Source: Gonapodya prolifera JEL478 (Eukaryota; Monoblepharomycota; Monoblepharidomycetes; Monoblepharidales; Gonapodyaceae). Taken from it: a DNA stretch of 64,000 bases. The stretch covers positions 525,955-589,954 of the forward strand of contig KQ965742.1 of the NCBI GenBank assembly GCA_001574975.1. The letters are read 5' to 3'. Position 1 is the stretch's first letter, and the number at the start of each line of letters is the position of its first letter. This document shows, piece by piece, positions 841-58,020 of this stretch. Under the pieces are notes generated by a model. It was not told the DNA's origin and searched no databases. It saw nothing but the letters and a program-made list of their open reading frames with translations. The translations under genes and the position numbers were made by a program.

Positions 841-2358
841 ATGCCTCTCGACTACACTTACGAAGTTCTCCGATGCACCTTCCCCACGGAAGGAGTGCTT
901 CACGTGGAGCTGAATCGTCCAAAAGGTGTGTACACGAGCTTCAACGTTGCCGGTTCTCGTCTTTCCGCGAGCTATCATTCCATCTTTGACCGCAACACAC
1001 TCTCTGACAGCCTTGAATGCTATGGTGGGTGGGAGCTGAACAGGAGAGCTCTTTCGGATGTCTTGAATTGTGCTCCCGACACTTCCCGAACCGCCACAGA
1101 ACCACACCTTCTGGCGTGAATACAAGGACTGTTTCGACAAAGTTGCGGAAGATGGTGATGTCAGGGCTGTGGTGGTCTCGTCCAACGGTGAGAATGATTT
1201 GTTCGAGTTTCTTGGGCAGCAACGATTCCTGAATGAATCCTATAGCTCGAATCTTCACCGCTGGTCTGGATTTGTCATCATCGGGCCTCGTCGACCCGAA
1301 GGCTTCTCCTGGGGCAGGTCCTGTGGCGAAACCAGACGCTGGAAGGCGAGCGTTCCACATTCGTCGCGAGGTGCTCAAAACGCAGGAGAGCTTCAACGCG
1401 GTGAGTTTCGCACAAATGGTGTTCGACAAACTAGGCATTGGAATTTTCATACTCATCTTTCGTTGTTATTCAACCTATGACGAATAAAGATGGAGTCGTG
1501 CGACAAGCCCGTCATTGTTGCGGCTCATGGCAAAGTTGTCGGCGGTGGCATTGATCTGATGACTGCTGCTGGTATGGGTTTCCTCAGATTGTTTGGAAAG
1601 AGACTATGTGCATTCATGGTGTTGCTCCTAGACATGCGATACTGTTCCGAGGATGCCACTTTCACCATCAAAGAAGGTAACTGCTGCTGATAGTCCAGAC
1701 CTTGTCGACATGTAGTCAACCACCTTTTCTATATACAGTGGACGTCGGCCTCGCCGCGGATGGTAAGCTGTGGCTCTCCTCACCTCGCTCTAGAGCTTCA
1801 AAATAACCACACCTCGCACATACACAGTGGGCACCCTCCAGCGCCTCCAGCACGCCGTCGGCAACCCCTCCTTTGCGCGCGAGGTCGTGTACACCGCCCG
1901 CTGGTTCACGGCCGCCGAGGCGCTCCAGCACGGCCTGGTGTCCAAGGTGCTCCCCACCAAAGAGGACGCCGTGCGTGAGGCGCTCAAAGTCGCGGCTGAG
2001 ATCGCGTCAAAGAGCCCGCTTGCCGTCACTGGGAGCAAGAACATTCTGAACTAGTGGGTGTTAGCAGGTCCTAACGCAAGCTGGAAAGCCTCTCTAATGG
2101 GTTCTATTTGTTCGTCGTGCACCGTGCGCGTGCAGCTCTCGGGACCATTCCGTTGCCGACGGATTGAACTACGTTGCCGTGTGGAACGCTGCGGCGCTCC
2201 AATCGTCGGTACGTGCACATAAACCTTGCTCGGCCCGCACCGTTATCGCCTTTTTAACGATTTTCACAACACCTTGGAATGTTGCTAAACATAAGGACGT
2301 TGCGACTGCCGCCATGGCGTCTCTCAAAAAGCAAGTGGCCAAATTCCCCAAACTGTAG
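841..2358 (+). CDS. Delta3,5-delta2,4-dienoyl-CoA isomerase (ECH1-type enoyl-CoA hydratase/isomerase)
   Basis: Auxiliary beta-oxidation enzyme that moves double bonds of 3,5-dienoyl-CoAs. Ten exons: 841-925, 1011-1024, 1100-1187, 1246-1400, 1490-1571, 1632-1676, 1739-1762, 1828-2053, 2136-2208 and 2296-2358, giving 284 residues. Exon 2 is a 14-nt microexon that restores LNRPKALNAMNHTFW. Crotonase landmarks are FTAGLDL, AAHGKVVGGGIDL, ADMRYCSEDATF and KEVDVGLAADVGTLQRL. The Asp of ADMRYC and the Glu and second Asp of KEVDVGLAAD match the acidic catalytic triad known for mammalian ECH1. The C-terminus KFPKL is a weak PTS1 variant. An in-frame ATG at 745 could add 32 residues; 841 is preferred because 745 lies only 12 bases after the previous stop. 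Confidence 0.92.
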
Positions 2359-2502
2359 ACCGATGTACTATTTAATGGGATTGGAGGGTTGCCATCGATA
2401 CAATAATAATATTAGATGCAAGAATAAATACAAACAGGCAGGTCCAGCCATGCCCCCCGGATGAACGGATTTCAAAATTATGATTGCGTGGCGGGCCCGG
2501 GT

Positions 2503-4433
2503 TTACTCCTTATTGGTTGGCCGCTGAGTTTTTCGCATCTTCTTCTGGTCCTGTGCATTCCCATCCGCTTTTGGCGGACGTGCCGAAACTGTGATGTTGA
2601 CATTGGCCGGGACGAACCAGCTTCCCTTGGGGACATGCTTCAAGCAATCCAAATGGTCGGGCAGCAGCGACAGCACGGGTCCGCCCTTGGGTGCAGAGGC
2701 GCCAAACGACTTGTTGGTGAATGCGTTCTCGAGCCAGTCCTCATACGTCCCAAGTGAGCTCGCGAGCACCTTGTTCCCGATCACGTGCATCCGGTTGTAC
2801 CGCATGCACGACTCCTCGCGGAACTTGTCATACAGGCCACGGTTGTACACGCGCTGGAAAGTGGAATGAAAATCGCGGTGTGAGTGAGTAGCGCATCAGG
2901 TGCAGAAGGAGGCTCGCACACACCTCGACGGCTCGCAGCACCTCGGGGTACTCATGGCTCCTATGCACGGCCCACGCATTGGGCAACACCAACGCATCCC
3001 ACCCATCCAGCCAGACCTCCCACATACACGCCTGCTTGTTGGCGCCGTACCCAAAGAACCGCTCGTCGCAGTAAGGAGGGCCGTCGCGCGGGTAGATCAG
3101 GTAAGGCTCGTACGCCCGTTGGTAGGACGAGCGCGGGATGTAGTAGGGCTCGGTGGAGGCGAGGAAGTGGGTGTAGTTTGTGGGGCCGTGGCCGCGCTGG
3201 GGGATGGGAGAGGTGGGAGGGGGACCGGTGAGTATGCGGGAAGGGTGCGGTAGGCATATGCCCAACACCCAAACTTACGAAGTTTGCATTGTGGAACATC
3301 TCAATCTCCTCCCTTTCGAACCTCTCCCTGAGCTCCTTCTTGGTCCTGATAAAGTGGCCCTTACGCTCCCCGCCCCGTCCCGTCGCTTCGGCGCCTTTGG
3401 GCGTCCACTCGAAGGCCGGGATGACAAGGGCGACTTTATGTGCTCGCATGAGGTCTTTGAGCGTCCATGTCGGGCCGCGCCCGCCTTTGGTGGGAGCACG
3501 AAGAGCAGGAGCGGTGCTAAACGTGCCGAGGGCGCCCTTGCGGACCTGGTCAAGCTCCTTGACGACGCCTTCGCCGACGACAAAGTCTCCGTCGAGCATG
3601 AGGACAAACTCTGTGCGGGAAAAGAACCGGGCAATGTTGCGCCACGTGTTGAATTGACGCGTGAACTTGTCCGTGACGATGTGGATGTCGCAGAGCGCCG
3701 AGACGAGTGGGTGCGTTTCGAGGAGGGTGCGGAGCTGGGCCAGGTTGGTTTGGAGCGTGTCGGAGTCGGAGGAGAAGTGGACCGTGACGGAGATAGGCCC
3801 TTTCCATTCGCTGACGAGGCCAGGGAGACGGTCTAGCCGTTTGGCGGTCAGCATGGTGGTCAGGGTGACCCCGTCGGCTGGCGGGGTAACGGTCGCGAGG
3901 TGGTAGTAGGGTATGAGCTGGGAGGGGCGAAGGGAGGACTGGAAGAATTTGAGAAAGAGCGAGGGCGGGAAGGTGTTTGGGTGGGGTATGGGGTTGAATG
4001 CGGGCGCTCCGCCTGAGTGGGCGTGGGTGAAGTAAAAGTGTGAATGGTACAGGTTTGCATTTTCGGTGCACACAAGACATGCCGCACGCTCATCCCCATT
4101 CTCACCTGGGAGGTCCACGCGATTCCACCACACCAGGTTCCGCTCCATCGCCTTGGACGGCGTGCCCTGACCGGTAATGGTCACAGTGTCCATCCGTCCG
4201 TGGATGCGCGGCACAACGCTGATTGCCGAGTAGGACAGGAAAACGAGCACTGCGACCGTCAGCAGCAGGCGGGTGAAACGGGACGGGTGTTCCTTCTCCT
4301 GCTGGTGCATTTCCAAGAACCCGGGTTCCCGCTTCAGACGCTCCGGTGATGGGGCTCCGCTGGTCCACTGATGGGAGAGCGACTCGTCGCCGGATGCAGC
4401 TCTGGCGCCGAGGAAGGAGAGGGAGTCAGCCAT
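2503..4433 (-). CDS. LARGE/B4GAT1-type glycosyltransferase (GT49), type II membrane protein
   Basis: Predicted Golgi glycosyltransferase. Exons on the minus strand: 4433-4106, 4012-3279, 3196-2924 and 2853-2503, giving 561 residues. A ~48-residue cytosolic tail is followed by one membrane anchor (LLLTVAVLVFLSYSAISVV). The catalytic region contains the metal-binding DxD in FVLMLDGDFVV, then FHNANFRGHGPTNY, DERFFGYGANKQACMWEV and NRMHVIGNKV, all typical of the GT49 family. The first intron (4013-4105, 93 nt) is a multiple of three, has no stop and starts GTGAG, so retention would insert 31 residues. The acceptor sugar substrate is not predictable here. It is transcribed divergently from the LRR gene at 4774. 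Confidence 0.85.
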
Positions 4434-4773
4434 TGGCTGGCGGATGGTCGGATGGACGATGGACCGGTGAAAAGATGGAGCGAATGATGGTGAAAAGTTT
4501 GAGCGGTTTTACGCCTCCTCTGCCCCAGATCTGGATTGCGGCGGGCGCCTCCCCCTTCAACCCTCACTCGAAGAATCGAATTTTTACTCTCCGACTAACA
4601 CGGGGATGGCCATGGTAGTGTTGCAATAAAAATATGCATCTACATTCTGTTGACTCGCCTTGACCTAGAGTAGTTGTCTTTGTGACCTTCTCTGTGCCAC
4701 ATTGTGCCACACCACACGCGGACCAAAGCAGTGACTTTCCATGGATTGATTCCCGCGAAATAACAGGAAACCA
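4434..4773. promoter_or_regulatory. Divergent intergenic region
   Basis: About 340 bases separate the start codons of the GT49 gene (minus) and the LRR gene (plus). It must hold both 5' untranslated regions and promoters. I see no open reading frame or repeat, and no regulatory motif I would name. Confidence 0.4.
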
Positions 4774-6624
4774 ATGCGGAAACTTTCAGACCTGTGTGTT
4801 GATGCCGTGATCCATGGCCTTGTCCTCAACGGAAGTCGTCTGGCCTTGGGGTCCGACATACCATGGAGTCCGTTCGGTCGTCTCATCTTCGAATGCATCA
4901 TGACTGGCTGGACAGACAGGCAACTCGACGTTCGCGCGCAGGCACGGCTTATTGACGCTGTCTCGAGCTTCATGCTGGTGTACCCGGACGAGATTGCTCG
5001 CCTGACCGACATGCTGATTCAGCGTTCTCTGAGATTGCAAGACGTGCAACTCACCGCAACCCGAGCGTTTGGTGGTGAGTGTGATTTTTGTTGCGGGTGG
5101 TGGGGGGGAGCGAGACGGAACGAACGAGGACACCAAAACCTAAACGACATAAAGCGCTGACCGAGGACTCTTTCGTGGAGCGAACCCAAGGCCTAGGCGC
5201 GATAGTGCCGACCGAGAAGTCCGCCGGAGGCGAGTAACCAACATAGCGGAATACTCATGCGGAGTGGGCCGTTTCATCGGTTGGCAGTATTGACGAGCTC
5301 CCTTCTTGATCCATTAGCATCCGTCCCCCTACCCCTCCAACGCCTGGAACGAATAGCGTCACTGAGCAGTATTCTCGTGCGACTCCAGCTGCGGGGCTGT
5401 GGGCTCCAAAACAGTGATCTCGTGTACATCGCACGGCTGCGCTCGCTTGTTCTGCTCGATTTGAGGGGCAATGCGGATGTTTCGGATACGGGCGTGAATC
5501 TTCTGTTGCGCGTTATTGCAGACGCGTCGGCGCACTCGAGCTCGAGTTTGTCGAGCTTGTCGAGTGACCCCACCTTTGACGGTGACGATCTTGTGGACTC
5601 CACATCGTCTCTCGCCAACCTCCAGCACATCAACCTGTCCCTCACCTCCGTTACGGACCACACGCTGCTCTCACTGTTTCCGAAGTTCCCCAGTCTGTGC
5701 TCGTTCGATGTGTCAAACAGCGAGGTGCAGGCCAAGGCCATGAAAGCGTTCCTGACGAAGCAGCAGAATGCAAACACCCACACCCAGACACAGGGGAGAT
5801 GGCATATTCTCGATCCGGGCATCACCCTCTTTAATGCAGACGACCGCGACATCATCCCACCGTCGTCCAAACGAGCGCGCGATAGCCACACCCTTGCTCG
5901 ACACCTCCTCCAAACCTTTCCCCCCTCTACCACCGTCTCCACCCCGCACACACATGGCCTACCGCGTGTCGCCTGGCCCACCGAAAAAGACGACGCCACG
6001 CACAACGACCTCGCCCGACGAAACATCGTGGGCCTCTTCCCGGGTCTTCGACACGTGCGCACTCAGGCGGAAGAACAGTGGCGCGATGGGAACTACCTAC
6101 GAAGATTTGTGATGACCGAGGAGGCGAATGCGAGCTGGAAGGACGAGACGGAACGCAAGCGGGCGCCGCTGCCGACGAGGATAAAGGACGCTCCCAAGCT
6201 GGAAGTTGTGACGGACCCCGAGCAAGTCTCGCACGCCCACATCGTCGCGTGGGAGGGGGACCGTGCGTTTACCCCCGGCACCAAGTTTGGCCGGACTGGG
6301 ACGTGGCGATGCGTTAAGATCATGGTGGCGTCCGAGCACGGCCGCGGGGAGGTCGCCGACGGTGGGGCGAAACATCTGTTGAGCTCCCTTCCCACCACCG
6401 CATCTTCGGACGACCTGTCGGCGCCCCCGACAAGCAATACGCGCCTCGTGAGCGTGGCCGAGCGGGGAGTGAACCGCGTGGCGAGGGTGGCGAACGTGCG
6501 TGCCAAGTCGGGTGGGGGATTTTTTGGACTGGAGCGGATGGTCAACTCGGACGTGTCGGTGGCGCCGAGTCCGAGTGTCTTCGAGCAGAAAAACCCGTTC
6601 ACCAAGACTTTTCGGCGTAAATAG
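4774..6624 (+). CDS. Leucine-rich-repeat protein of unknown function
   Basis: Two exons, 4774-5074 and 5288-6624, give 545 residues. The N-terminal ~100 residues (LSDLCVDAVIHGLV onward) are helical and not recognised. Residues ~125-270 contain LRRs of the cysteine-containing type (LVRLQLRGCGL, LVLLDLRGNADVSDTGVNLLL, LQHINLSLTSVTDHTLLSLF, LCSFDVSNSEV), as in F-box/AMN1-like proteins, but no F-box is evident. The C-terminal half is charged and low in known motifs. No signal peptide or membrane segment, so probably cytosolic or nuclear. The single 213-nt intron carries a repeat shared with other introns in this window. Confidence 0.75.
5075..5287 (+). repeat. Long intron carrying an intron-restricted repeat (copy A)
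   Basis: This intron begins GTGAGT and ends GGCAG. Segments around 5108-5128, 5188-5215 and 5209-5245 closely match segments of the MFS-gene intron at 39246-39631: GCGAGACGGAACGAACGAGG, AAGGCCTAGGCGCGATAGTG and AGTCCGCCGGAGGCG. The matches lie inside the intron and stop before the exons. Confidence 0.6.
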
Positions 6625-6746
6625 TGTGGAGATATGCGTCACGTTTTTTCTTTTGTAAATAGGACTTTGTTGGTGCGGGGCACGTGCTGGGGTGGGTTCA
6701 TTTCGGGTATCAAGTCGATTCCCACATCAAGGCGACCCCCATCGCC

Positions 6747-9700
6747 ATGAAGTTCGGGCGGTACTTGGAGCAGGAAAAAGTGCCAGAATGGGCTAGCCGC
6801 TACGTGAAGTGAGCCCGTTGGAGCATTCGTCCCTGGGGTTGATGGTGGATCCACATTTCCATTATCACCCATCTCTCAAGCTACAAGCGCGGCAAAAAGC
6901 TCATCAAGCAGATTGCGCAGGACATTGCGGCTACGCAGAGGAAATCGTTTACTCCCCTGGGGGGCCAGGATGCTCCTGATGCTGTCGCATCCTCGGCTCC
7001 ATCGCTTCACATCCCACCACCGATAATTCCAGTGGACACGCACGCTACTTTCACGCTCTCCTCACCTAATTCGTCGTCGTCGAGTATTCACGAGATTTCG
7101 AACGGGAATGGCAATGGCACGGAGTACATGCCGTTGAACTTTGAAAACCAGAAGCGGGAAAAGGCAGACTACGAGCTGCCGCCGCCTTCTTCTCCCTCTA
7201 CACCGAGGAGGACGCCCGTGGGAACCAGGATTGCATCTGTGGTGTCTTTTTTGGGACAACGGAACACCCGTAAGCTCACTGTTTCGTCTTCAGGGTGAAC
7301 CTTCACAGCAAACCATGTCTTTTCAGGGAGCCCTGGAATGGGAAAAGCACTGGATGACATCATTCCCACTCTTCTTGTCAACGAGAAGCTGTTCTTCGAG
7401 TATCTGGACAAGCAGCTGGAGAAAGTGGACGGCTTTTACGCGGAGCAGCTTGCCCATGCCGAATCGAGACTGTCGGCAATCCAGGAGCAGCTCAGGGTTC
7501 TGAAAGAACTCCAGATGAATCCGGACCTTCTCGCTCACGAAGCGCGGCTTCCATTGTCGAAGAAGGATGTGGAGGAGACTGCTTCCGTAATACGAGCCGT
7601 GATTGCAGAGATTCCACAATCAATTTTACACGCGTCGTTCATGACAAAAGCGGCAAACGCGCTCAGAAAGAACAAGTCGCTACCGATCCTAGATGTGGAG
7701 TCGGGCAGTCATCGTCGGCGAACGGGAGATCATGTCGCTCAACTCCGCGGACAACAAGATTCGTCCGACGACGACGATAACGCCGGGGATGCCCAAAATA
7801 ATAGTGACGACCTGTCGGGCGATGAGGCTCCAACAAAAGTCCTCAATGCAAAACCCATCTCGATGGGAGCCGTGACAATGCATAACGCGCTCCCCACGTC
7901 GTCGCATCGACAGTCGGAATCTGTTCTAACGTCGAGAAAGAGTTATAGTAAGGAAACTCCAAGTGCTCTCTCGCGGGCCCGTGATGCAAGTGCTATCCAA
8001 AGGGAGGAAATGCTGAAGAAACTGGGTTTGGACGAGAAAGTGACGAAGCAAGACCTAGAGAGCGCGAGATCGCGAACGAAGCAGGCTATGCTGGAATACT
8101 ACCGATTCCTGTGCCTGCTGAAGAACTTCCAGGTCAGTCAGCCAACAATACCGCCTCACAAACTGCCGACTCAAATGTTGATTGCCGCAGAGTCTCAACA
8201 AACAAGCTTTTGGAAAGGTTTTAAAGAAGTACGAAAAGGTGACGAGATGGGGTGCATTGAAACTTTACATGAGCAAGGTGGAGCGTGAGTATACGAAATG
8301 TGGTCTTGTTCCAACATTGTTCCAGCCATAATGCTTTCCATTATACAGAGCAGAAGTTTGTGAAGTCCGGAAGGTTGAAGGAGCTGGAGGATGAGACCGA
8401 GAAGGCATTTGCAGTCCATTTTGCAGGGGGTGATCGAAGAAGTGGTAGGTGATGCTCTGACTTGTCTCTATGCAATATGGGAGGCATCTTGGTTTCCAAC
8501 ATACCTGTTTGTTCCAGCGATGAAGAGACTACGGTTGCCAGAGCCAAAGCGTGACGATCGATACCTCACAACTTGGCTGACAGGTCTCCTCATCGGCTTG
8601 TCTATTTCACTAATCGTGGTGACTTTGGAAAAGAGTGGGATTAATCAAAATGATGCTCTAATTAAATATTAACCAGTTCTCTTTTTATTGCATAGTATTC
8701 GCCCAAAACCTTCTTGAGACCGAGCCAAACACTCGTTTCCTACTTCAAGTATATGCTGGCTTTGGAGTCATCGTTTTTCTCCTACAATTATTTTCTCTCG
8801 ACATTTTAATCTGGGAGAAGTTCAACGTCAATTACGTATTCGTGTTCGAGTTGTGCGTTTCGGATATCCCGGCACGATATGCGAACAGCTTCCGACCTCA
8901 TCTGTCCCCAGGGATCCACGTGACCATTTGGAACCCGTCGAGTTTTTCAACTTCAGCTCCTTGCTGCTGTGTCTTTGTTCTATCTGCTTCTATCTGACAT
9001 GTGAGTGTTTTCTTGATCACTCTGCGATGTGCATGGCTCATCGGAATTGTTCCAGTCGATAATTGGTTTTCGGGATGGTGTCGATACACTTCCTATCCCG
9101 CGATTCTTCTCGTTCTTATTGGGGCGGTTATGCTTAATCCTTTCCGAATAATGTTTGCAACAGCTCGATGGTGGTTTCTGCGAACGTTTTCTCGAATTTT
9201 GACATCGGGATTTCATTTCGTGGAATTTCGGTGACTACCACTGTGCAATTTTCTTCACCTTAATCCCCATTCTAACAGTCCTGAACTAGAGATTTTTTCG
9301 TCACCGATAATCTTAACTCTATAACATTTGCATTTACTGCCCTTCAAGCATTCGTTTGCGCTTATGCCAATTCGTGGGCCAACTTAGGTGAAGTGTGTGA
9401 AAACAATATTCCTTTCAATCACGTGACAGTTGTTAGCCGCTGCTAGATAACGCCTGTCCGCTTTCCAATTCGTGGACGGTAGCTGCCTTCACAGCCATTC
9501 CTGCTTTTCTCCGTTTAGTGCAATGCGTCAGGCGATTTTATGTTAGTGCTCTGCTTTTGGCTTTATCGAATCATTATAGACACCCTATTGCAAACTCGCC
9601 CTATTAGGACTCTCGAAATGGTTAGTCTGCATGCACTGTCCGAACCCATTGTTGAATTTATGAATTTCTTTTCAGCCCATCCGCACTTAACGAACTCCGT

Positions 9701-17718: not shown

Positions 17719-19972
17719 CTAAGCTGTCGCCCCTCGCAAATTGAAGGGGTTTGCGATCAAGTCATCAAAGAAGGTGTCTCCGTTGACATGGTGCTGAGCA
17801 TGCCCGGACCACTCGACGCCAGCGCCAAGGATTGAAGCTGAGGTGGTGCCTTCCACTCGAGGTGTCCAGAGATTCATCCCGATGTTTTGCATCGGTAATG
17901 TTGTTGGGGCGGCTGTGGTTGAAACTTCCACATGCTGGATTCCACCCCACGGCAACGGTCCGGACATCGCGGGTGGGTGCGCGACGAATATTCCTTGGCA
18001 CGCCTGGGCGGTTGCAGAGGGGCTGATTTGAATCTGCAGCGGTTGCTGACCGCGATTGTTGGGATATGGCGCCGCTGCAGGGGCCCTTCCTGTAGTCGCT
18101 ACGATGAAGTTGGTGTTGCCAGTCGACAGGGTGGCGTTTGGTAGGGCTGTCCCATTGAGGGATTGAAATCCGGATACAGGGGTTTGCACAAGCACTCTGT
18201 TGGCGGTTTGTCCGACCATAGTGGAGGGAAGTACGTAGGTCTCTCCCTGCGAGTTGGTGGATGAATGCCTGCGGTGAGGAAGGGCGGTTGCCGCCGTGGT
18301 CCAACTCGAGTGAATCGCCGACGGGTACGCAGGATTTGTCAACAGCCACGTCGACGACGGAGAAACGCCCTGAGTGACGACGGGTGTTTGCTGAGGAGGT
18401 TGGTAGATGTGGGCTTGCACCGACTGGTACTGTTGTGGGAAGGGTAACGGGTTTATGGGCGACCGGCCTTGTTGCCACGTTGGCACATGAGTTTGAGGAA
18501 CCACCATGCTTGCCGTTGTTGTACCGAAGCGGGTGTAGGTGCTTGTCGATCGGGGGTCGGGGCTGACGTTCAAAAGCACCTGCGAAAGCACCGGCGATTG
18601 TGCGCCTGTAACGTAACGAAGAGGAGCCAACAATGAGTTCAGAACTAGTTTTCTATCTCTTTCGGCGTGTTACTCACTTGGAAGGGAGAGGACGGGCGAT
18701 GCAATCGACGTTTGTTCTGTCCACGAAACGGTCCCAATCTGTTGATTCATGTCGGCGTAATGCCCGTTCGATAGCCTGCGTGCATCCTCTTGCAGTCTCG
18801 CGCCTTCAACCGCGCCTTGGATCGCATACGACACATCCGCCGCCGCTGCTGCCGCGGTTTGTTCCAGGGTTGCACTGTTCTTTCTTCGCTTCTTGGGCGC
18901 CGCGCCCGTCTTTCCCATGCGCACCACGTAGTCCTCGGGCAGGGAGATGGTCGAAAGGGAGTCCATAGTTTGCCTCGGGGTTCGGATGACGCCGTTCGCG
19001 AGGTCGCTGAGCGTGTAGTAGGACACGACGTGGTAAACTACGTCGTCGAGCGATACAGATACGGTCTTTTTGATGAGACCGTCGGACTGAAAGAGAAAGA
19101 GAAGTGAGAGGCGCGTTTTAAAAAGTCAGTAGCTGCCGCTGACACACCTTGTAAGTGAACATGGACGCCGCGGCGCCGAGAAACGGCATCGGCATGTGCA
19201 TCTCGGTGAGCGTGGCTAGGTCCATGCCAGATGAGCGAAACCCTTTCTTCTTGCGCAGGCTCGAGTCCGACAGTTCGTAGACAGAGTCGTCCGGCACGGT
19301 TTGTGCGCGAGAGGAAGAGGACGAGTCCCCGGAGTATCCCTTGGAAACAGAGCTGGTCGGGCTGCCTGCACCCGAGCTCCCTTGCTCGTCGCCCTCGCTT
19401 CCGTCCTCGTTGTAGTCTGGGCGCTCGTGGTTCCTCAGCTCCCTCTTGGAGTAGGGCCCGGACTCGGGTGCGGCGTCGGATCCAACAGGGATCTGCAAGT
19501 CTTGCACATACGTGTCTGGGACGGTGGCGATATCGGTGTGGTCGCGCACGACCTCAGTGGTGACGGTGATGGGGTTCTTCCGCTGGAGTTCGCGGTAGAT
19601 GAGGAACTGGCCCAGGACACGGGATGGCGACCATGTTCGGCCGTCGGTCCAGCGCTTAATGTGAGATTCCTGGAAAACCGTTGAAGAAGTATGAGAATGC
19701 AACTAAATTGTAAATACGGGAGACATGAGGACACGTACAGTTTCATTGAACACAAAGACGGAACCGCTGCGGATTCCAACTCTCTGGGATTCGGACAAGC
19801 GAGATGTGACCCGATTGAGGATTCCCGTCCGGCACGCTTGCAAAATGACGAGACAGTCTTCAATCGTATCCACGAAGCCGTAGAACGTCTCCAGCTCCTC
19901 GATTTCAACGTCCGAATAGACGAACTGCTCCTCCTCCTCGGCCTTGCGCTTTCGAGAGCCGCTGTTTCGCAT
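17719..19972 (-). CDS. WOPR-domain transcriptional regulator (Gti1/Pac2/Wor1 family)
   Basis: Nuclear DNA-binding regulator; relatives control morphological switching and gluconate or mating responses in fungi. Exons on the minus strand: 19972-19739, 19669-19148, 19086-18678 and 18605-17719, giving 683 residues. The first WOPR half is ETFYGFVDTIEDCLVILQAC, RTGILNRVTSRLSESQRVGI, RSGSVFVFNE and IKRWTDGRTWSPSRVLGQFL. The second half is SDGLIKKTVSVSLDDVVYHVVSYYTL, separated by a serine-rich insert of ~130 residues. A basic cluster GSRKRKAEEEE lies at the N-terminus and KKRRKNSATLE after the domain; either may be nuclear localisation signals. The C-terminal ~400 residues are Gln/Pro/Ser/Thr-rich, as in activation regions. 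Confidence 0.93.
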
Positions 19973-40759: not shown

Positions 40760-42699
40760 TTAGGGGCGTGAATTAAATTTGTTTATATACGCATGCGTTT
40801 GCACATACGACATGGATATCACAATATGATTATGTAAACAAAGATGTTTGGAACAGGGACCATTACAAAAGTGACAAAGTGGTAGCGTCATGGGATACGA
40901 CGTATTTCATTGAAGGAAACACAGAAAAAGAGAAAGTGGGGCGAGTTCGGTTAGTGTCCGATCAGGGAAAACGATGAGGAGACGTGAATTGTAAGATGAT
41001 AACCGTATTGCACAGGAAAAATGAATCCAAACTCGCAACTCCCGCACACGTCAAACTAACTGCAAAAGAGCCGCACCGAGTAGAGCAGAAACGGTGGAAG
41101 AAGGAACGACGACCGGGACCGGCTCATCGAACACGCTGGTATGGATATCCGGAGAATTTTCAGTCACCCCGTTGGTGTCACGGGTCGGCTCTTCTAAGTT
41201 CTGAAGCGAAGGAAAATTTTTGTGAAGTAAACATGTGATTTGGGGGGGCGAAAAAACAAAAGGTTCATGGCCAGCCAAAGTCGGACTCGAATCGTCACAG
41301 CGGGGCACTTACATGGGCCCGGAGCACCTGCTAACATGCCACTGCCGCTTACCACAACCCGATAGGACAATTATACACAAACTTAATCATATATGCTACA
41401 TTTTAAAAGACAAAATTTTAGCTCTCAAAAAATTAATAATTCTATAACCAACTAATCCATCTATAACGTGGCTTTTCGGTCACTGAAATAATGCAAAAAC
41501 AAACAACTGATTCGACCAAGGAATTTGAAGTTTTGCCCCCTTTTGGCGTATTACGAACTTTCTTGAAATTCAGTCCTTTTTGGTGAAATAGAACAATTTC
41601 GATTTTACATGTGTTTAGGTGCAATCCCTGTTGGGAGACGATCACCATCGGATTGTGGGGGGCTCATCAGAAATGACCTCGTTGTAAAGTGCAACTGCGT
41701 CTTATCCGACACGCCGCAGCTCGAAACTTCTTCTGTGCATGGTGTGAGCTCCTCGCCGATCATACTCGGCCTCTCTGTGCTTCAGAATCGATGGCACATC
41801 ATGTTACTCTGTGTTCGGTGTTCCTGCGGACAGACAGGAGGAGAACTCCGGAGAGAGATATGGCCGACTATCTACGACATAGTCTTTCCGCAATCTTCGT
41901 GACGCGATCCGGCGGGGTTGTCTCCCTTGGCGAAAAGTAAACACCTAAATATATGAAAACACCGAAAGTGAGAAGTTTTCCAATTTCTCTCAAATCCCTA
42001 AAAACATGAAAACGGTGAAAGGTAAGAAAAGATGAAATCTAGCGAGATATTTCATGTGGACTATTTGCAAAATTATGCCTGGCCGAAAAGCATTGGGGCA
42101 TCCACCATCTATTTCTAGGTAAAAAGCAATAATTTACCAACAAATCTTCTTATCACACAGGTATCGTACTGCTCCCAATCACTTCAATCTGCTCGCATCT
42201 GCAAATCTCCGGTGCAGGTGGCAGACCATCAACGCTCATCCTATCATTTGAGGTTGACATCCATTTTGCGAGTTGTCAATATCGCGTACACTATTACCGT
42301 ACACGGCAAGCTCAAGCATACAAGGCAAGCTCAAGTGGATTTTGCTGATGCGTTTCTTGATGGTACCGCAACAGAAAGCGCCGAGGCGAGGTCAACGCCG
42401 GACGAGAGAAGGCACTCCAGCTAACTTCACCCTATTTATATACACACGTGCACATGCACATACGACATAGATATCATAGTACGATAGAACATTGACATTC
42501 AAACAAGGGTATTTTGAACATCGACCAGCGAAAAAGCGAAACAGCGACCAGCGCGAAACGTGACACGTTAAGTTGCAGCGACAAGCGACGAGCGACGAGC
42601 GTTCATGACATAGTTCTGTGGTGTGGGTGTGGTGCCGACTCGAGGCGCGGCGGGGGGTTCGGGAGCGGGGCGTCGGGTTTTCCATGCGCCAAGTGATCG
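40760..42699. other. Gene-poor intergenic region with a short dispersed repeat
   Basis: About 1.9 kb between the convergent MFS and LRR-SH3 genes. No gene was recognised. A ~50-bp segment near 40780-40830 (TTTATATACGCATGCG then GCACATACGACATGGATATC) recurs with about 80% identity near 42434-42487 (TTTATATACACACGTG then GCACATACGACATAGATATC), in the same orientation. The middle is AT-rich. Confidence 0.45.
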
Positions 42700-44465
42700 C
42701 TAGAGCGGATATGTTGTGAGCAAGCAGTTTGCGACAAAAAAAAAACACTGGGGGAATGGGATGACGTACAGGGGCACAATTCCAGTCGCCAGCGTGCGCA
42801 AATTCTGGGACAGGGCCCAGCCGTCACGGTACGCGACCTTGACTTTGACGGGCTCGCCACGTCGGAGCGATATTTCGTCGGACGCGGACGCCGTGTACTG
42901 CGGTGAAGCCGAGCGTAAGCACCGTATGAAGGAAAGGTCAACTCCACGCCCACGAGGCACAAACTCACGTCCATAACAGCAACCAGCGGATAGGTATTCG
43001 ACGGCATCACGACCTTGCGCGCGTCCTCGAAAATATCCCCCACGAGGACCAAAAACGCCCAATGCGGTCCGACGGCGCTCCATTCTACAGTGGGGCTCGG
43101 CGTGTACGCATCGGAGCTCTGCGAGTCCGTTGCCGTCGCGAGTGACGATGCCCTGAACACGCTGATCTGCGGACTGCGAGACAGCTCTTGGCTCAGATCC
43201 GACGCGAGCGAGAACGTGTCGGGGCTCTCTGCGCTCACGCTGCGCATGTCCTCCATGATGTGGAACCGGACCCGCCGGGCGATGGAGGCGACGGCGGATG
43301 CGGGTGTGGATGGGGATGGAGAGTCGGCCTTCCCGTCCGCTGCGGGGTCTGGAGGGGTTTGGGCACCGCTTGCTCGCCCAACTGCACCGCAGAGGACGAT
43401 CGTGCCGCCGAGAATCCCAAAGACTCCGATGGCGGAGCCTGCGACTGCGATGAGCGGGATGAAGTTGAAGGATGCGGGTTGCGCTGTAGCTGTGGGAGAA
43501 GGGGTTGCAGTGGTGGCGTATGAAGGTGGTGGTGGGGTTGTTGAGGGTCGAGGTCTGGCCATGGAAGTCGTGGGAGACTGGCAAATACTTTGCGGTGTAC
43601 TGGCGGGGCGGCACACGGCAGGTACGGCGCCCGTGCACGAGTACAACCCTGTGGTGACGTTTGCCCACTCGATGACGCATGTTGAGAGGTTCGATGGGAG
43701 GAGACCGTCAAGGTTCCCTCCGAGGTTCGTGGAGGATACGTCAAGAAAGGTGAGGTTTACGAGGGCGGAGATGTCCGGGAAGGGACCCGAAAGGGATGGG
43801 TTGTCGTGCAGGTCCACCGTGCGCAACTGCGTCAACCTCCGCAAGGACGGGAACAAGCCGCTGAAGTTGTTGCTTGCGAGGTTGAGTTCTTGCAGGAGCG
43901 TCAGGTTGGTGAGGGATCGAGGAAGAGACGCGTTCAAGTTGTTGCTGTCCAGCCGAAGCGTAATCAACGCCGTATTTTTGGCGAGTGAGGGGAGGGGTCC
44001 TTGCAACCGACTCTGCGATATCGCCAGCGTCTCAAGCACGGTCAAGTTGTCCAACGGCGGGATGGACCCCGTCAACGCGTTCCCGCTCAAGTCGAGGAAC
44101 CGCAGCCGGTCCAGCCCACCAAGGGACGGGGAAATGGGCCCGGCGAGTCCAGCTCGCACCAAGCTCACCGCTGTGACGCGCAGAATGAGATTCGCGGTGG
44201 TCTCGGTCCCGGTCGCGACCTTATTCGAAGCATCGCTCGCGGCTGCAAGGCCCTCGACCTCGCACTCGATCTGCTGGTCGAAAGTCCCCCCGTAATAGCC
44301 ACAGCAGTGCCCGTTTTTCCACGGCGGGGATCCGACGGATTGGTTGAACAGCAATTCAAATGGCCTGCAATCGTCGCGTTCCGACCGTGTCACCGTCTGA
44401 CCGTGGCACCCTCCCACCACCAACGATACCGTGATCGCCGCGATCCAAAACAGTGACACGCGCAT
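42700..44465 (-). CDS. LRR - transmembrane - SH3 receptor-like protein
   Basis: Probable cell-surface protein linking an extracellular LRR domain to a cytosolic SH3 domain. Exons on the minus strand: 44465-42969 and 42897-42700, giving 564 residues. Signal peptide (LFWIAAITVSLVVGGCHG); cysteine-bearing cap ending GHCCGYYGGTFDQQIECEV; about six plant-type LRRs (LRFLDLSGNALTGSIPPLDN, ITLRLDSNNLNASLPRSLTN, LQELNLASNNFSGLFPSLRR); Pro/Thr linker; membrane helix (LIAVAGSAIGVFGILGGTIVL). The cytosolic tail ends in an SH3 domain built across the intron: YPLVAVMDYTASASDEISLR, RGEPVKVKVAYRDGWALSQN and TGIVPLYVI. The 71-nt intron has no stop in frame, so retention would destroy the SH3 while leaving an open frame. 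The model start is the ATG giving a clean signal peptide. Confidence 0.88.
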
Positions 44466-44855
44466 CTCGCGTCCACGACACCACAGACGGCGGATTTGAA
44501 TGCGCGGCGATCCCCCCCTACAGTGCGACGCGGATTGAGGATGACAGGGTACGAATCTTGAGGGAGGTGCGCCCCCCGTCATGCGGCGATGCCCTCAGTT
44601 GATAACAAACAGCTGCGTTCTGTGGATCAAATCATCGTATCGGATTGTAATTCAATTCAATTTTGGTTACCTCGTATTGCGATACATATGAGAAAATCGA
44701 TTCAACTGTTTGGATGTGGTTCCTGCTCCTTCTCGCCCCATGGCCACCAAAGATTTCCAAATCAGGAACATCCCCGCCATTCAATTACAAACAAATTCAA
44801 TTACTAATCCAAAGCGTCCTTGTTCTCGCCAACAGCCAACCGCCTCTCCCCGTGC

Positions 44856-46436
44856 TCATCTCCCCGCGATAGCGTTCGGTTGGTTGGCCCCGCCGACTAC
44901 CAGCCAGAGCAGAAGGGACTTGGCCACGAGAGAGAGTACTGAGTGAATGGGGAAGAGCAGGGGTGAGGTGACGTGAGTTGATACGACACCGACGAATGAC
45001 GAGTTATTGAAATCACTGCCGTACCTTGGTAGACCTTCTCGCCCTTGTAGTACCCCGACCCCGGGAAATCCTTGTCGGCCCAGAACCCCCTGCGCATGTA
45101 CTGCCCGATCATGTTTATGGGGAACGTGTTGAACCTATGACGGGGGTGGCGGCCGTAGGCGGGGTCAGTTTGTTCTGAAGAAACGAACACCGACACGACG
45201 CTAACGCCTTTTGCAAAAACCCCAGAAACAACTCACATGACAAAATACGTCACGAGAATCGCCCACACAAACCCCGGCACGTTCCCCTGCGACGCGGCGG
45301 TCCCGAGGTACGAAAAAATCGCCGCCCATGGCACCACGCCCGCAAACGTCCCAAACCAAAACGCGGTCCAGTCGACTTGCCCGCCCGTAAGCGAGTTGTG
45401 CAGCTCCATCATGTACCCGAAAAAGTTCATGCACGCGTTGACGGACATGACGAGGATGAGCGAGATGATGTCGTACATCCCGAACAGGATCCCGATGAGG
45501 CCGATCATGAGGGAGGAGGAGAAGGCGTATTCGATCCAGCGGAATCTGCGAGGGTGGGGGTTGGGAGGGGGGGGGGAGGGTCAGATGCGTGAGGTTCCAC
45601 ACAGGTGAGAAGAAGTATTCGCCTCCGGTGGGGGTATGCGCTCCACGCTCTGCGAAATAGCCACTTCGCGGCAGGCAATCCGCCTCTGGCTGACGGCTCG
45701 CTCCTTCGGCGTCTGGCCAACCGTCACTCGGACGCACTCACTTGTTTATTCCCCTTCTCAAATCCGCGAGATAAGTTTTGAAGAAGAGCAGCACAATCAC
45801 GTGGAACAAGCTCGACAGGAACCCAAAGCCCGACACGACGGCTACGAATGGGAATAAGCCGCGGTTCTGCATCGAGGGCACGGGTATGCCCGTGGACCAG
45901 TCGGTGAAGACTGTGATGAACGGGGTTTTGAAGTTGGAGAGCTGGGATGATGCCGAGTGCCGAGCCCAAGCCCAAGCCAAAGAAAAGATTCGGTCGCGAT
46001 GAGTGTCGAACGGAACTCGGCATGTGGTAAGAGTCCAGGGAATAAGCACCTTTGGAACCGCCAGCCCGGCACCGAGACACGCCACGGCTTGCACGCCATG
46101 GAGAACCGCCCTGACATTGTAGTCGCAGTCGTTTGCAGGGTGAGATACCGGTTGGAATAGTCGCGACCCTTGCAGACGGACTCACATAGCGAGGTTCCAC
46201 CGCCACAGGGACCGCTCGACCAGTCCGCGCTTGATTTCATCGGCTGTTCAAGAGTCGAGACGCGGGATTCGCGATGGACGGGCGGAAGAGAGGGGAAAGG
46301 GGCAAAGCAGCGCGAGCGAGAGGTGAGTGTGGCACCTCCGCGGAGAAACCTAGCACATATGAAAAATACCTGCCGCCGCATCGCCGTTCTCCTCTTCCAC
46401 GGGGTGCACGGCCTTTGCCTGCGAGTTTGAAGACAT
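44856..46436 (-). CDS. Heliorhodopsin (type-1-like microbial rhodopsin, inverted topology family)
   Basis: Retinal-binding seven-helix membrane photoreceptor. Exons on the minus strand: 46436-46370, 46243-46186, 46110-45742, 45545-45237, 45134-45025 and 44938-44856, giving 331 residues. Heliorhodopsin hallmarks: LWRWNLAMAVLHGVQAVACL in helix 1, GINKFRWIEYAFSSSLMI in helix 3 with the Glu expected as Schiff-base counterion, FWFGTFAGVVPWAAIF, PGFVWAILVTYFVMFNTFPI, YYKGEKVYQVLSLVAKSLLL in helix 7 with the retinal-binding Lys in SLVAKS. Every exon phase agrees. The segment encoded near 45955-46010 may be an additional spliced piece. No carotenoid or retinal synthesis gene is visible nearby. The neighbour upstream on the same strand is an AstE/AspA-type deacylase. 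Confidence 0.9.
45546..45741 (-). repeat. Heliorhodopsin intron with candidate third copy of the intron repeat
   Basis: Read on the minus strand, this 196-nt intron contains GAGCGAGCC, GCCGCGAAGTGGCTATTTCG, CAGAGCG and CCGGAGGCGAATAC, resembling CCGCGAAGGGCGATTGATAG and CCGGAGG/CGAATAC blocks of the MFS-gene intron (39246-39631). Similarity is weaker than between the other two copies. Confidence 0.4.
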
Positions 46437-46771: not shown

Positions 46772-48314
46772 TCACTGCGCTTCCGCTTCCACGCCCCACA
46801 CCCACGCCTCCTCCCCATCATGCACCAACTGCGGTGCAACGGGCATGATCAAGAACGCGCCGCCCTGAGTCTCGCACTTTATGTCGCCCTTATCGTCCCT
46901 TGCCACGACTTCACCTTCGGAGATGTAGGCAAAGGCGGATGGTGGTGGGGTCGACACGTACCGAAACCCGGGTTTGCAGTGCACGGCGGATGTGCATTGG
47001 AGGATCTTGTGGGATGCTTGGCGGGTAGGTAGTGGTCCGATGGGTGAAGAAGGTCCACAAGAGGATGGGGAGGGTGAACAAGATACGGAAGGAGAGGAGG
47101 ACGGGCGGTTGATGGATAAGAAATGCTTGATGACGTCGACGGCCTTGAGATACGTCTGTCAAAGTAGAATGGATCGAATCAGAAAATGAGTTCGTCCAAT
47201 ATGGCCACTTGTCGCCAAAGCCCAAAAGTGAACCAGAACTTGAGAATCCTCACCTCCTCATCATCATGCTGCCCACACTCCACCGTCCCCGCCACACCCA
47301 TCCCAACCTCTCTCGCCCAACACCCAGTAGTCCCCTCCTGCACATCCAGCATGCCCTGCACCGAGTAGTCCACAGGGAACCCGGAGCAGAACGCCTTGGA
47401 AATGGGAGCGGAGTGCGGGATGGAAAATGCGGGTGTCGGGGAGGATGTGGAGTGAACGTCCAGGTGGGCCGAGGAGTGGGAGATGAGGTATGCGAGGGTG
47501 GGTACGAGGGCGAGTTCCACCGGTTTTGGAAAGGCTTGATCGTCTCCCCGTTTCTCCGGCCCCGATGTCCGGTTCTTCAACCTCTCCCCAACCTGTTCCT
47601 GGACCACTTCCTTCCGAAACAGCCGGTTCAGATTAACGTCCACGAACCGCTTTCCCACCGGCACGGCATGCGGGTTTCCCAACACGACTGTCAGCGTGTC
47701 CCATCCGAAGGGCCAGGTGCCGCGTGGTGGTGGTGGTGGGAGGGCGGGTGTGTGTTGAAGGTTGGCGGAGAGCTCCGCACCACCACCACCGGCATCGGCG
47801 GCCGTTCGCTCCCGTTCGCGTTCGCGGTGAAGAAGCAGCTCGTCGTAGAACCCCAACACGTCCTCATCCTGCAATTCCCGTTTGACGGCGGAGGCGGGGA
47901 AGAACCCGTTGTCGAGCAGGGCATTGAAGGCGCGGAGACCGCACTGCGTTTTTTTAAGAGGATGACACGTGGGACGTGACGAGAAGAGCCGATGGAGCAG
48001 TAGTTTCAGCGTGAATCGCGGTGATGGCGGGAAGGGAATGGAAGCGGAACCAAAACCCGTCACCACGATCGCCACCACCAAAACGCAGCCATCACCCTTA
48101 CCTGCTCATTTCCATGAACCGACACCGTCAGGAGCATCTCCACCGGTGCTCCTGCCCCCTCTCCCTCCTTCCCGAACCGGAAATTATCCTCATTCGTCGG
48201 GTCCTCCCACCACCGCCCGCGTCGTAGCGCGAGTGACACGGGCGTGTGCAGGCGCGGATCGTAGCCGGGACGCGTGATGAGGAGCGCGGAGGTGGCGGGG
48301 AACAGTGTAGGCAT
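46772..48314 (-). CDS. Succinylglutamate desuccinylase/aspartoacylase-family (AstE/AspA) metallo-deacylase
   Basis: Zinc-dependent amidohydrolase of the M14-like AstE_AspA family, which cleaves N-acyl amino acids. Exons on the minus strand: 48314-48102, 47943-47254 and 47155-46772, giving 428 residues. The first zinc site spans exons 1 and 2 (LLTVSVHGNEQ-CGLRAFNALL: His and Glu ligands). VVLGNPHAVPVGKRFVDVNL and NRLF form the substrate-binding block, and LDVHSTSSPTP carries the third (His) ligand. The C-terminal beta domain is CKPGFRYV.. SAFAYISEGEVVARDDKGDI .. GGAFLIMPVA. No signal peptide, so cytosolic. It lies head-to-tail with the heliorhodopsin gene, 335 bases apart. The specific acyl substrate cannot be told. 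Confidence 0.85.
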
Positions 48315-51217: not shown

Positions 51218-51575
51218 TTACGGAGCAGATACTTCCTGCTCATCCGAATCTTGGTGTCCGGGCTTGCCTCCAGAGAACACATCTTTAACCACTTCTTCAG
51301 CTTCAGTTGGGCTGTCTTGATTCACGTCAGGGTTGTTGCTGGGCCACACAATCTCATAGAAGTTTCCATAAGCGTCCTCATTGGCGGGGTGCAGCCTTTG
51401 AGAGAGTGGTGTTAGTAAAGGGAAATGAGATTTCAGAAGGAGGTCTCACACCTACTCACAGCTCAAGGTATCCGTTCGAACTCAACTGTTCCGCATTCTC
51501 ATTGGATTTTGAGTTGAAAAATGCTCACCGCTGGCTGGTCTACCAGTGGGTTGAAGAAAAAGCCCTCAATGTCAC
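51218..51575 (-). pseudogene. 3' end of an unrecognised gene, cut off by a repeat end
   Basis: On the minus strand three exon-like pieces join without frame conflict: DIEGFFFNPLVDQPA, LSSNGYLEL and LHPANEDAYGNFYEIVWPSN followed by an acidic tail ending GHQDSDEQEVSAP and TAA at 51218-51220. Both implied introns have GTGAGC/GTGAGT donors and CAG/AAG acceptors. The reading frame enters directly from the inverted-repeat copy at 51571-51808, so its 5' part is missing or displaced. The family is not recognised. The exons could alternatively be transposon-derived. Confidence 0.4.
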
Positions 51576-51808
51576 ACTGACATCCACTAACGTGGAGTAT
51601 ATAGTGTAGTATGAGTGTTGGGTATTAGCTGCTGTGCCACTACTGTGGCCGNGGGTTTAGATGTGCACACCTGCAGGACGTGCCCTAAGTTTGGCATCAC
51701 GTTCCTGCAGGTGAGTTCTATGCACATTACGTCTTGCTATGTACATCTGATCATATATACACGTTCCTGCAGTTTACATGCTCGTGCAGCTCACCTAGGT
51801 TGTGTAGC
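51571..51808 (+). repeat. Solo terminal-repeat copy (TR1) of the Harbinger-like element
   Basis: About 238 bp, starting GTCACACTGACATC and ending CCTAGGTTGTGTAGC. It is repeated as a reverse complement at 56374-56611 and in the same orientation at 57845-58020. It includes the only ambiguous base of the window (n at 51652-51653). A 62-bp part (51711-51772) begins GTGAGT and ends CTGCAG, and is missing from the 57845 copy. Confidence 0.75.
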
Positions 51809-52966
51809 ACTCAAAAGGGCCAAGGATGTTGTGTGTGGTTGTGCTGTGGTCTTAGTGTCCCTGTCACGCAAACCCCAGACCTTTTTCATTACACCCTGAA
51901 TTGACACCGTGGTTGATTGTGCATAAGACATGGGGTCGCGGACACCGCCACGGTGAGTCTGGTGGAATTCTTTCAGGGTATAGTCGCATACGAGTCAACA
52001 AAGCTGCACTGGTTTCACCCAATCACAAAAAAGAATGTATGAGCTGAAGCTTGAGTATCGCACTGGGCTTCAAAAGACAGTATTTCTTTGGTCCAAATGC
52101 GTTCATATGAAGATAGGAGACATTACCCATTCAAAATAAAATACATATCAAAGTATTGCACAGCGATAACTAGTAATATAACGTCAGTGATGCCTGCAAA
52201 ATGGGTGGTGTCAACACAACCTCTTGTCACTGTAACAGTCGAAAACGCGACGTTCAAACTCACCAGATGAAGTGTAACTTTGATGGCCAAATGACGGTGT
52301 AGTAGGGTTACTACGGGGTTAGTCACAAGGGTAAGATTAGATTGAGTTAGGAATAGCTCTATTGTTCATCTTTTGTGTTGACCGGCTCCGAGGGCTACTG
52401 TGGTCACGATGCCTTCCGGCGCCACCAACGCCAACCCGTCGGCCCGTTCCCTGGTGGACAGTAGTAGTACCACCACACCTCCCCCACCAATTGAAGCTGA
52501 TGACCTCATCAGGCGTGGAGTAGATAGCACAAGTAATGACGAATCGCACTTCACAATTCATCTTGTCTTCAGATGCTTTGGGACGCACCCAGGATGTGGG
52601 AAAACCTTTCCGCGGCTCTCTGGCCCTTTTCAATTTGATTCTTTTGCAGCCGGAAAAACACCCATATCCCATCAAGGGAAAGTCAACATTTAACCTGTTT
52701 TCGACTCAAAACCCTTGTCCACTCGTCGACAGTCCAAAGACGTCTAGCCTTCAACTTTAAATGTCTTCAAGAGCTCCGCATTCTTCCCTCACCCCCCTCT
52801 CTCAAGATGCTGGTGCCCATACCCCTTGCAATATTAGTGATTTAACGTGGCGGGGAGAACGACGAAGATTTTCCAAGTCACGATCTTTGGCTGTGGCCTC
52901 TGCGATCTCATGCTGCACCTTCACACGCTCTCTTGTGCGTTGGTTTTGCGCATTACTGTGAGATCT
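51809..52966. other. Repeat-region sequence without a recognised gene
   Basis: About 1.15 kb. A Ser/Thr/Pro-rich open frame at 52400-52693 has no recognised domain. The rest is fragmentary; it may be a degraded transposon body, but I cannot assign it. Confidence 0.3.
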
Positions 52967-56274: not shown

Positions 56275-56373
56275 TATTAATCCTTGTTGTTCAGTTGCGT
56301 CACTGACCAGACCCTGCTGTCACAGTCCCATGGCAGCTCGCTGGTGCCCCACTTCCTGATACTGATCCCACAT

Positions 56374-56611
56374 GCTACACAACCTAGGTGAGCTGCACGA
56401 GCCTGTAAACTGCAGGAACGTGTATATATATTCAGATGTACATAGCAAGACGCAACTTGCATAGAACTCACCTGCAGGAACGTGATGCCAAACTTAGGGC
56501 ACGTCCTGCAGGTGTGCACATCTAAACCCGCGGCCACATTAGTGGCACAGCAGCTAATACCCAACACTCATACTACACCATATACTCCACATTGGTGGAT
56601 GTCAGTGTGAC
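56374..56611 (-). repeat. Left inverted repeat (TR2)
   Basis: Reverse complement of the 51571-51808 copy. It includes the 62-bp GTGAGT...CTGCAG segment (here on the minus strand, with several substitutions). Its inner end overlaps the 3' end of the transposase reading frames. Confidence 0.75.
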
Positions 56612-57827
56612 ACCACATCTCACTTGTAATCCTGTCCCGATGCTCACTAGATCCCTCGTCTGCATTAGGTCGGGCGGGGACATAGTCCTCACCCACCTCC
56701 TCTTCCATCCTCCCCCTCCTCCTGGCAGCCGCCAATGCATCCTGTTGCTTGTCCCATTGACGGACCAGCCAGTCCTCAGGCTCGTTGCCCCAGTTTGGAT
56801 GAAGTTGTGGAGGACAGCACAAGCAACCACAATGTCCACTTGGGTACCACAAGAATACATGGGAGCCTGGGTAAAAATCCTGAACCTCTTTTTGAGAGTG
56901 CCAAATGCCTGTTCAACAATGTTGCGTAGGGCAGCATGTCAGAGGTTGAAAAGCTCGCGGGGCGTTGCAGGCCTACCAACACACATTGCAACAGCATCAA
57001 GCCAAAAACACGCTTTGATTGGCTCACCTTTGTCCCACAAGTCCCCATTCCCAAAGATGGTAGCGTACAGACTTGAAGGGAATCAGAAATCCCAGGGTCA
57101 ATCCGTACGCAGCATCTGCAAGGTAAAATCTACCATTCGGCACCTGGAAATCCTTTGCCAGTGCATCTTTGAGTACTGTCCCATTGTGGGAGGAGCCCTC
57201 CCACCCAGGTAGGATGTACGTAAAGAGTCCATTGAAGTCCACAGCTGCCAAAACGTTCTGGGAGAGCTTTCCCTTCCGGTCACGGAATGGTGACTGCAAT
57301 CCCACAGGAACAAATGCTGGAATGGCGGTGCCATCTACAGCACCAATGCAGTTCTCAAAGAAGGGGTAATAGCAGGGGTCAAACCTGATCTTCTGGTGAA
57401 CAGGTTCGTCCCCAGTAGGCTGCACAATGTAGTCGGTGGCCATCGCAACCACCGCGTCAAGAACACGATGAACATAGTGATTAATAGTCTTGCTACTGTG
57501 CTGAAACCTGTCCATGAGGTCAACTGTTGCCCAGTTGCGCCCAACAAGGAACAAGAAAATCATGACCTGCTGTTCCACTGATATATCCTTGGTGTTTACA
57601 AGTGGACCACGGGGTTCCCAAAGGCGTTCCACCAGGTGGTGGAACGTTGACATCTCCATCTGCAACAGGCGGCATGCCCAACCCTGGTCGCCACCCAAAA
57701 CCTCCCAAGTGCAGTATTTTCCTTGCAGAGAGGAGTCTAGTACGCGAATTGATGCTGAAAGAGACCGTCTGAGTGAGTTCCCAGTGGAGATTGCGACTGC
57801 AAGGGTGAGGATGCCAGTGAAGATCAC
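56568..57827 (-). pseudogene. PIF/Harbinger-like DDE transposase, mutated
   Basis: Catalyses cut-and-paste transposition. Minus-strand reading: MEMSTFHHLVERLW, VEQQVMIFLFLVGRNWATVD, LMDRFQHSSKTINHYVHRVL, then the first catalytic Asp in GAVDGTAIPAFVP, FTYILPGWEGSSHNGTVLKD with a second Asp, and FYLADAAYGL. After a spliceable intron (~GTGAGCC..TTGGTAG) it continues PATPRELFNL-stop-HAALRNIVEQAFGTLKKRFR with the expected Glu, then VVACAVLHNFIQ. The stop is TGA at 56939-56941 where relatives have Arg. A one-base frameshift follows HNFIQ. No start ATG was found upstream of the 57827 region, so the N-terminus is uncertain. Confidence 0.75.
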
Positions 57828-57844
57828 AAGTAGGTCTGATTAAT

Positions 57845-58020
57845 GTCACACTGACATCTACTAACATGGAGTATATAGTGCAGTATGAGTGTTGGGTATT
57901 AGCTGCTGTGCCACTACTGTGGCCGCGGGCTTAGATGTGCACACCTGCAGGACGTGCCCTAAGTTTGGCATCACGTTCCTGCAGTTTACAGGCTTGTGCA
58001 GCTTACCTAGGTTGTGTAGC
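57845..58020 (+). repeat. Right inverted repeat (TR3), lacking the 62-bp segment
   Basis: Same orientation as the 51571-51808 copy. Here TCACGTTCCTGCAG joins directly to TTTACAGGC, whereas the other two copies have a 62-bp GTGAGT..CTGCAG insert at this point. Confidence 0.75.

Follow-up and report, generated by a model that had tools for sequence, protein, structure and literature searches.

We identified a heliorhodopsin gene in the genome of a zoosporic fungus, where, to judge from its sequence, it is intact, nuclear and the sole copy found in the assembly, and its product is probably a light sensor or light-modulated regulator rather than an ion pump. Heliorhodopsins are a family of light-absorbing proteins better known in bacteria, archaea, algae and giant viruses; the fungal protein is a new member of this known family, in a kingdom for which we found no report of one, and a heliorhodopsin would give swimming-spore fungi a further class of light receptor. 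The window, by which we mean the whole stretch of 64,000 nucleotides that was analysed, forms the last part of contig C12 (589,954 bases) in an assembly of 47.56 Mb and 207 contigs.

Gene structure and copy number

Both strands were read, and the gene was located on the minus strand at 46436-44856, where seven exons join into an open frame of 295 residues across six introns with GT-AG borders. Exon 1 (46370..46436; all features of the gene are on the minus strand) contains the start codon and a presumably cytosolic N-terminal tail and has the donor GTATTT, exon 2 (46186..46243), with GT-AG borders, completes the tail and begins TM1 (WRWNLA), and exon 3 (46050..46110) carries TM1 with H46 (AVLHGVQ). 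Beyond intron 3 (45942..46049), which is 108 bases long and open in frame, exon 4 (45742..45941) encodes the TM1-TM2 loop, TM2 with H109 and a portion of the TM2-TM3 loop, and exon 5 (45237..45545) contains FRWIEY with the counterion E134 and runs from TM3 into TM6 (Y229). The remainder of TM6 (F233) and a charged TM6-TM7 loop are encoded by exon 6 (45025..45134), and TM7 with the retinal lysine K275 (SLVAKS), the C-terminus and the stop codon by exon 7 (44856..44938).

The preliminary description had the location right, at 44856-46436 on the minus strand, but its six exons and 331 residues give way to seven exons and 295 residues; the earlier model came to exactly 331 because intron 3, worth an extra 36 residues, was read as coding. 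With intron 3 spliced out, the protein aligned to its top match in the PDB, 9vfc, with 238 bits and 15 gaps, versus 221 bits and 51 gaps with the intron retained. Four of the five remaining introns contain in-frame stops, and intron 6 is stop-free but breaks the frame by its length of 86 bases. The motifs named in the same description, WNLAMAVLHGVQ in helix 1, RWIEYAFSSSLMI in helix 3 and SLVAKS in helix 7, were all recovered in the spliced protein.

A search of the assembly with the spliced protein returned seven matches, all collinear and at the heliorhodopsin locus, and none of the four scored candidates was a paralogue; the Pfam heliorhodopsin search of the whole genome gave a single match. 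The base composition of the gene rises to 0.80 at GC3, versus 0.53 at GC1 and 0.42 at GC2. Its neighbours, a leucine-rich-repeat protein downstream (42606..44594, minus strand; Pfam LRR_4, 4.3e-10) and an aspartoacylase/AstE-like piece upstream (47182..48105, minus strand; PF24827, 7.5e-06, 26 bits against a cut-off of 25), offer no functional link.

Family membership and key residues

The spliced protein matched the Pfam family Heliorhodopsin (PF18761) at 9.4e-71, with 238.4 bits against a cut-off of 26.7, over profile positions 1-240 of 242, and exon 5 by itself matched at 1.3e-34. No other Pfam family, including the type-1 family Bac_rhodopsin (PF01036), was matched at E ≤1. The earlier assignment to the heliorhodopsins is upheld by this profile comparison, in which PF18761 was matched and the type-1 profile was without a match at that threshold, and also residue by residue. 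In a search of the PDB at E ≤10, seven distinct sequences were matched, six of them heliorhodopsins, with 9vfc at the top (1.5e-71) and 48C12 (7.1e-37) included, and the seventh at chance level (0.86).

A three-row alignment, rechecked in the sequence, revealed that H46, H109, E134, S271 and K275 are common to the fungal protein, 9vfc and 48C12, and counting along the alignment places H46, E134, S271 and K275 opposite H23, E107, S237 and K241 of 48C12. The single glutamate counterion position of TM3 is filled by E134, opposite E107, and the SxxxK retinal-lysine motif of TM7 is present as S271-L-V-A-K275. H109 is presumably the counterpart of 48C12 H80, and the functional roles that we assign to these five positions are likewise presumed. 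From these residues we infer that the protein binds retinal at K275. With TM borders set by hand and the N-terminus placed inside, 14 lysines and arginines fall on cytosolic segments, versus three elsewhere, and this charge pattern favours an inverted topology with a cytosolic N-terminus.

As the best-scoring relative, 9vfc resembles the fungal protein in having a TM6-TM7 loop longer than that of the six other aligned rows and in sharing LLLWLV-GG--QPN at TM7, although about half of the residues differ and some bacterial rows match its percent identity. 48C12 and TaHeR carry the counterion glutamate, the retinal lysine and the TM1 histidine as in the fungal protein, but they are prokaryotic, have a shorter TM6-TM7 loop and are lower in identity (41% for 48C12).

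Relationship to other heliorhodopsins

A scan of genome contigs yielded at least 591 stretches, of which at least 519 were confirmed and the best 80 were kept. Searches with tblastn were run on 84 loci, namely these 80 together with L089, L090, L128 and L130; ten were removed as too short or interrupted by a stop, and the remaining 74 loci with four references made 78 rows, 60 of which passed an 85% identity filter. The tree was built on 63 rows, these 60 with L089, L090 and L130 restored, and is without algal, mirusvirus and type-1 rows.

Among the 78 rows, drawn from the best 80 loci, the fungal protein and 9vfc were reciprocal best matches by bit score. Their identity was 46-49%, and the bacterial L013 was equally near the fungal protein, at 48.5% by blastp and 50% over 247 tree columns; with best identities of 46-50%, no near-identical donor was present among the sequences compared. 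In the tree, the fungal protein and 9vfc were joined with 100/98 support, both on long branches, and the pair adjoined a 47-row cluster of mainly Bacillota and Mycoplasmatota, in a drawing whose root is for display only. When either the 9vfc or the fungal row was removed, in quick trees of 59 rows each, the other sat at an unresolved fork beside a Lokiarchaeota/Actinomycetota group; as both rows arrive at the same kind of fork, their join is not merely long-branch attraction, and its depth is unsure. The fungal protein was nested inside no sampled prokaryotic cluster of the 63-row tree, a position that speaks against recent acquisition from any of the bacteria sampled.

Residues at the transport positions

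Some virus heliorhodopsins are reported to move protons, for example V2HeR3 of a coccolithovirus, and the coccolithovirus proteins resemble the fungal one in being linked to eukaryotes (PMC9448325). The same report presents E191 as the hallmark of ion (proton)-transporting viral heliorhodopsins, essential yet insufficient within the viral group, with W195 as its partner and proposed gate, and gives I199 and F203 as the TaHeR equivalents of the two (PMC9448325). We reached the V2HeR3 positions indirectly, through the TaHeR alignment and this published numbering. The numbering offset agrees with four residues named in the report, and the same offset puts TaHeR Q213 and E227 where the report states, opposite Q243 and E264 of the fungal protein (PMC9448325).

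Traced in this way, the E191 position (TaHeR I199) is Y229 in the fungal protein and the W195 position (TaHeR F203) is F233. The signature of the proton-transporting V2HeR3 group, a glutamate and a tryptophan at these two positions, is absent, and the pattern resembles TaHeR rather than the transporters. With the E191/W195 pair missing, signalling would be the likelier role of the fungal heliorhodopsin than ion transport. For bacterial heliorhodopsins, reported targets are glutamine synthetase and photolyase, and also an ABC transporter (PMC11109279); by analogy, the fungal heliorhodopsin may act through a partner protein.

Other rhodopsins and retinal supply

Two tandem genes on contig C1 each combine a rhodopsin domain with a guanylyl cyclase domain; they lie in locus L091 (C1:1415500-1425400) at about 1236-3497 and 4682-6814 and have the TM3 motifs RFIEWMCCCPLL and RFLEWSCCCPIL. 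Two bacteriorhodopsin-like loci, L092 on C22 and L093 on C23, are closely alike by eye, with Pfam run on the C22 pieces, and contain the helix WTLTTPLLLLD, which we take to be typical of proton pumps. Fungal rhodopsins of the CyclOp and NOP-1/CarO types, represented in this genome by the two cyclase fusions and the two bacteriorhodopsin-like loci, are also retinal proteins but form another family, the fungal heliorhodopsin being without a Bac_rhodopsin match at E ≤1.

The 20 exon matches to the carotenoid oxygenase profile fall, by our grouping, into five genes: a tandem pair on C29, a tandem pair on C88 and one gene on C34. Lycopene cyclase (Lycopene_cyc) had no match in the genome, and of the two SQS_PSY loci that on C84 is a squalene synthase and that on C80 is phytoene-synthase-like; both searches worked exon by exon and may overlook genes that are present. 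Given no lycopene cyclase match and a single ambiguous SQS_PSY locus (C80), an endogenous retinal supply is unproven. Some chytrid groups are reported to have the carotenoid oxygenase only (PMC9616733), and the present fungus may thus obtain its retinal by cleaving carotenoids acquired from outside.

Fungal origin of the contig

The window contains 198 ORFs of at least 110 aa, of which 20 were scanned against Pfam. A gene of at least two exons for a WOPR (Gti1/Pac2) regulator (18673..19702, minus strand) matched PF09729 at 6.2e-16 and 1.1e-05, and its larger exon matched White-opaque regulator 1 (4qtj) at 2.2e-11. We take WOPR and LYS2 to be fungal markers. Elsewhere in the assembly, a LYS2-type reductase (TIGR03443) was found on C8 as eight pieces that together cover profile positions 1-1365 (of 1390) apart from two short gaps, none of them singly above the cut-off, in a profile that also matched 12 of 14 prokaryote controls, all below the cut-off. 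Radial spoke protein 3 was found on C9 (8.5e-49) and in none of the 14 controls, and the light-harvesting antenna family Chloroa_b-bind had no match in the genome.

A dispersed repeat at 51570..51809 (plus strand) joins the window contig to at least 31 other contigs. With 40 of 400 candidates scored, it gave at least 42 rows over at least 32 contigs including that of the window, 40 of them full length at 98-100% identity and two shorter, and the contigs bearing it include C8 with the LYS2-type reductase, C9 with radial spoke protein 3 and C88 with carotenoid oxygenases. Tetranucleotide correlations (r) of six window pieces were 0.71-0.93, inside the range of 0.59-0.94 for 15 pieces elsewhere (0.69-0.94 minus two N-rich pieces). 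Fungal gene families and genome-shared repeats were thus both found, and the WOPR, LYS2-type, radial spoke and cyclase genes, the unmatched antenna family and the shared repeat together indicate a zoosporic fungus rather than contamination: the genome looks both fungal and zoosporic. The preliminary description had named a non-fungal algal contig as a reading that would overturn it, and the same evidence disfavours that reading.

Other mobile elements were seen in the window. An element of LINE type, comprising an endonuclease and a reverse transcriptase, lies near the contig end (60792-63161) and has a 94% partial copy on C148; its segment 61728-63161 was considered as a link between contigs and set aside as weak, having matched only C12 and C148. 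A DDE_Tnp_4 transposase piece (57027-57839; 5.2e-07) is flanked by dispersed-repeat copies at 56371-56620 and 57844-57984.

Proposed role and alternative explanations

If the protein is a light sensor or light-modulated regulator, carotenoids, probably taken up by the fungus, would be cleaved to retinal, which would bind K275, and light would isomerise the retinal and drive a slow photocycle. The change of shape would be relayed to a soluble or membrane partner at the cytosolic face, the expected location of the N-terminal tail and of the charged TM6-TM7 loop. The heliorhodopsin would work alongside the rhodopsin-guanylyl cyclases and bacteriorhodopsin-like proteins of the genome, and zoospore light sensing is a suggestion for its role.

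The protein might instead transport protons or gate a channel like coccolithovirus V2HeR3, since proton transport is known for some virus heliorhodopsins and E264 retains the position of V2HeR3 E215, a weak pointer given that E215 is conserved among heliorhodopsins (PMC9448325). However, Y229 stands in place of E191 and F233 in place of W195, the proposed gate, and we regard transport as distinctly unlikely. Decay of the gene or a lack of expression is very improbable, as its frame is open over seven exons with GT-AG borders, GC3 is 0.80 and the key residues are kept. Still less credible is that the contig is a contaminant of non-fungal, for instance algal, origin: heliorhodopsins are known in algae, yet the repeat of the window recurs in at least 32 contigs, including C8, C9 and C88, with 40 rows nearly or fully identical, the WOPR gene lies in the same window, Chloroa_b-bind is unmatched genome-wide and the tetranucleotide values of the window are within the range of other contigs.

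A further alternative concerns history rather than function, namely a fairly recent gain, perhaps with no settled role, whose donor would be an alga, a giant virus, a mirusvirus or a bacterium outside our sample, and such a gain is compatible with the biochemistry of a light sensor. Heliorhodopsins occur in mirusviruses and in some giant viruses, and their exchange with planktonic eukaryotes has been reported (PMC10132985, PMC12768974), and several bacterial proteins, L013 among them, match 9vfc in percent identity. Against this, the gene has six introns, no viral family was found in the 20 scanned ORFs of the window, the best identities among the compared sequences are only 46-50% and the protein lies outside every sampled bacterial cluster; we regard a recent gain as somewhat unlikely. 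We also entertain, as a speculation that is on the whole rather doubtful, that an early eukaryotic ancestor passed a heliorhodopsin down to the zoosporic fungi or to a single lineage among them. Supplied with retinal from dietary carotenoids, it would signal to a partner in the cytosol of cells whose phototaxis employs rhodopsin-guanylyl cyclases.

Fungal heliorhodopsins in the literature

No report of a fungal heliorhodopsin was found in the titles and abstract openings of the heliorhodopsin literature searched, a coverage outside which the main family papers lie. Within that incomplete coverage, the literature examined agrees with the earlier remark that such proteins are rare in fungi or have seldom been described there. 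One study added fungal genomes to a search for heliorhodopsin relatives and included a single fungus in its tally of unusual rhodopsins, of both types, that had not been described before, with the type unstated in the part of the source available to us (PMC9601134); this entry could be a precedent. The present finding touches the eukaryotic origin of heliorhodopsins proposed in the same study (PMC9601134).

A 2022 photoreceptor survey of 45 fungal and aphelid proteomes used type-I and type-II opsin queries and, as far as its accessible text describes, no heliorhodopsin query (PMC9616733), and a further fungal family of retinal proteins could therefore have gone unnoticed. Transformation is reported for at least one chytrid (PMC7213984), so that finding heliorhodopsins in hosts of this kind would open their role outside bacteria to experiment.

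Heliorhodopsins on viral contigs and a plasmid

Scans of viral contigs yielded L089 on a phage contig, L090 and L129 on one and the same contig, and L130. L128 lies on a contig whose ORFs look by eye like a bacterial chromosome, and the viral-contig matches L133-L135 were found not to be heliorhodopsins. In L089 (IMGVR_UViG_3300036987_000418):2387-3175, the phage heliorhodopsin lies between genes for the terminase large subunit (phrog_9, 1e-183) and the portal (phrog_12, 1.6e-145), after which the module continues with a head protease (phrog_94, 1.5e-95). A heliorhodopsin within a phage packaging module looks unusual, and tblastn at a threshold of 1e-5 found nothing similar to the L089 protein among 50,697 phage records. 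An annotated heliorhodopsin is also borne, at 4149-4934, by a 10.5-kb plasmid of Lactococcus petauri (NZ_CP141705.1).
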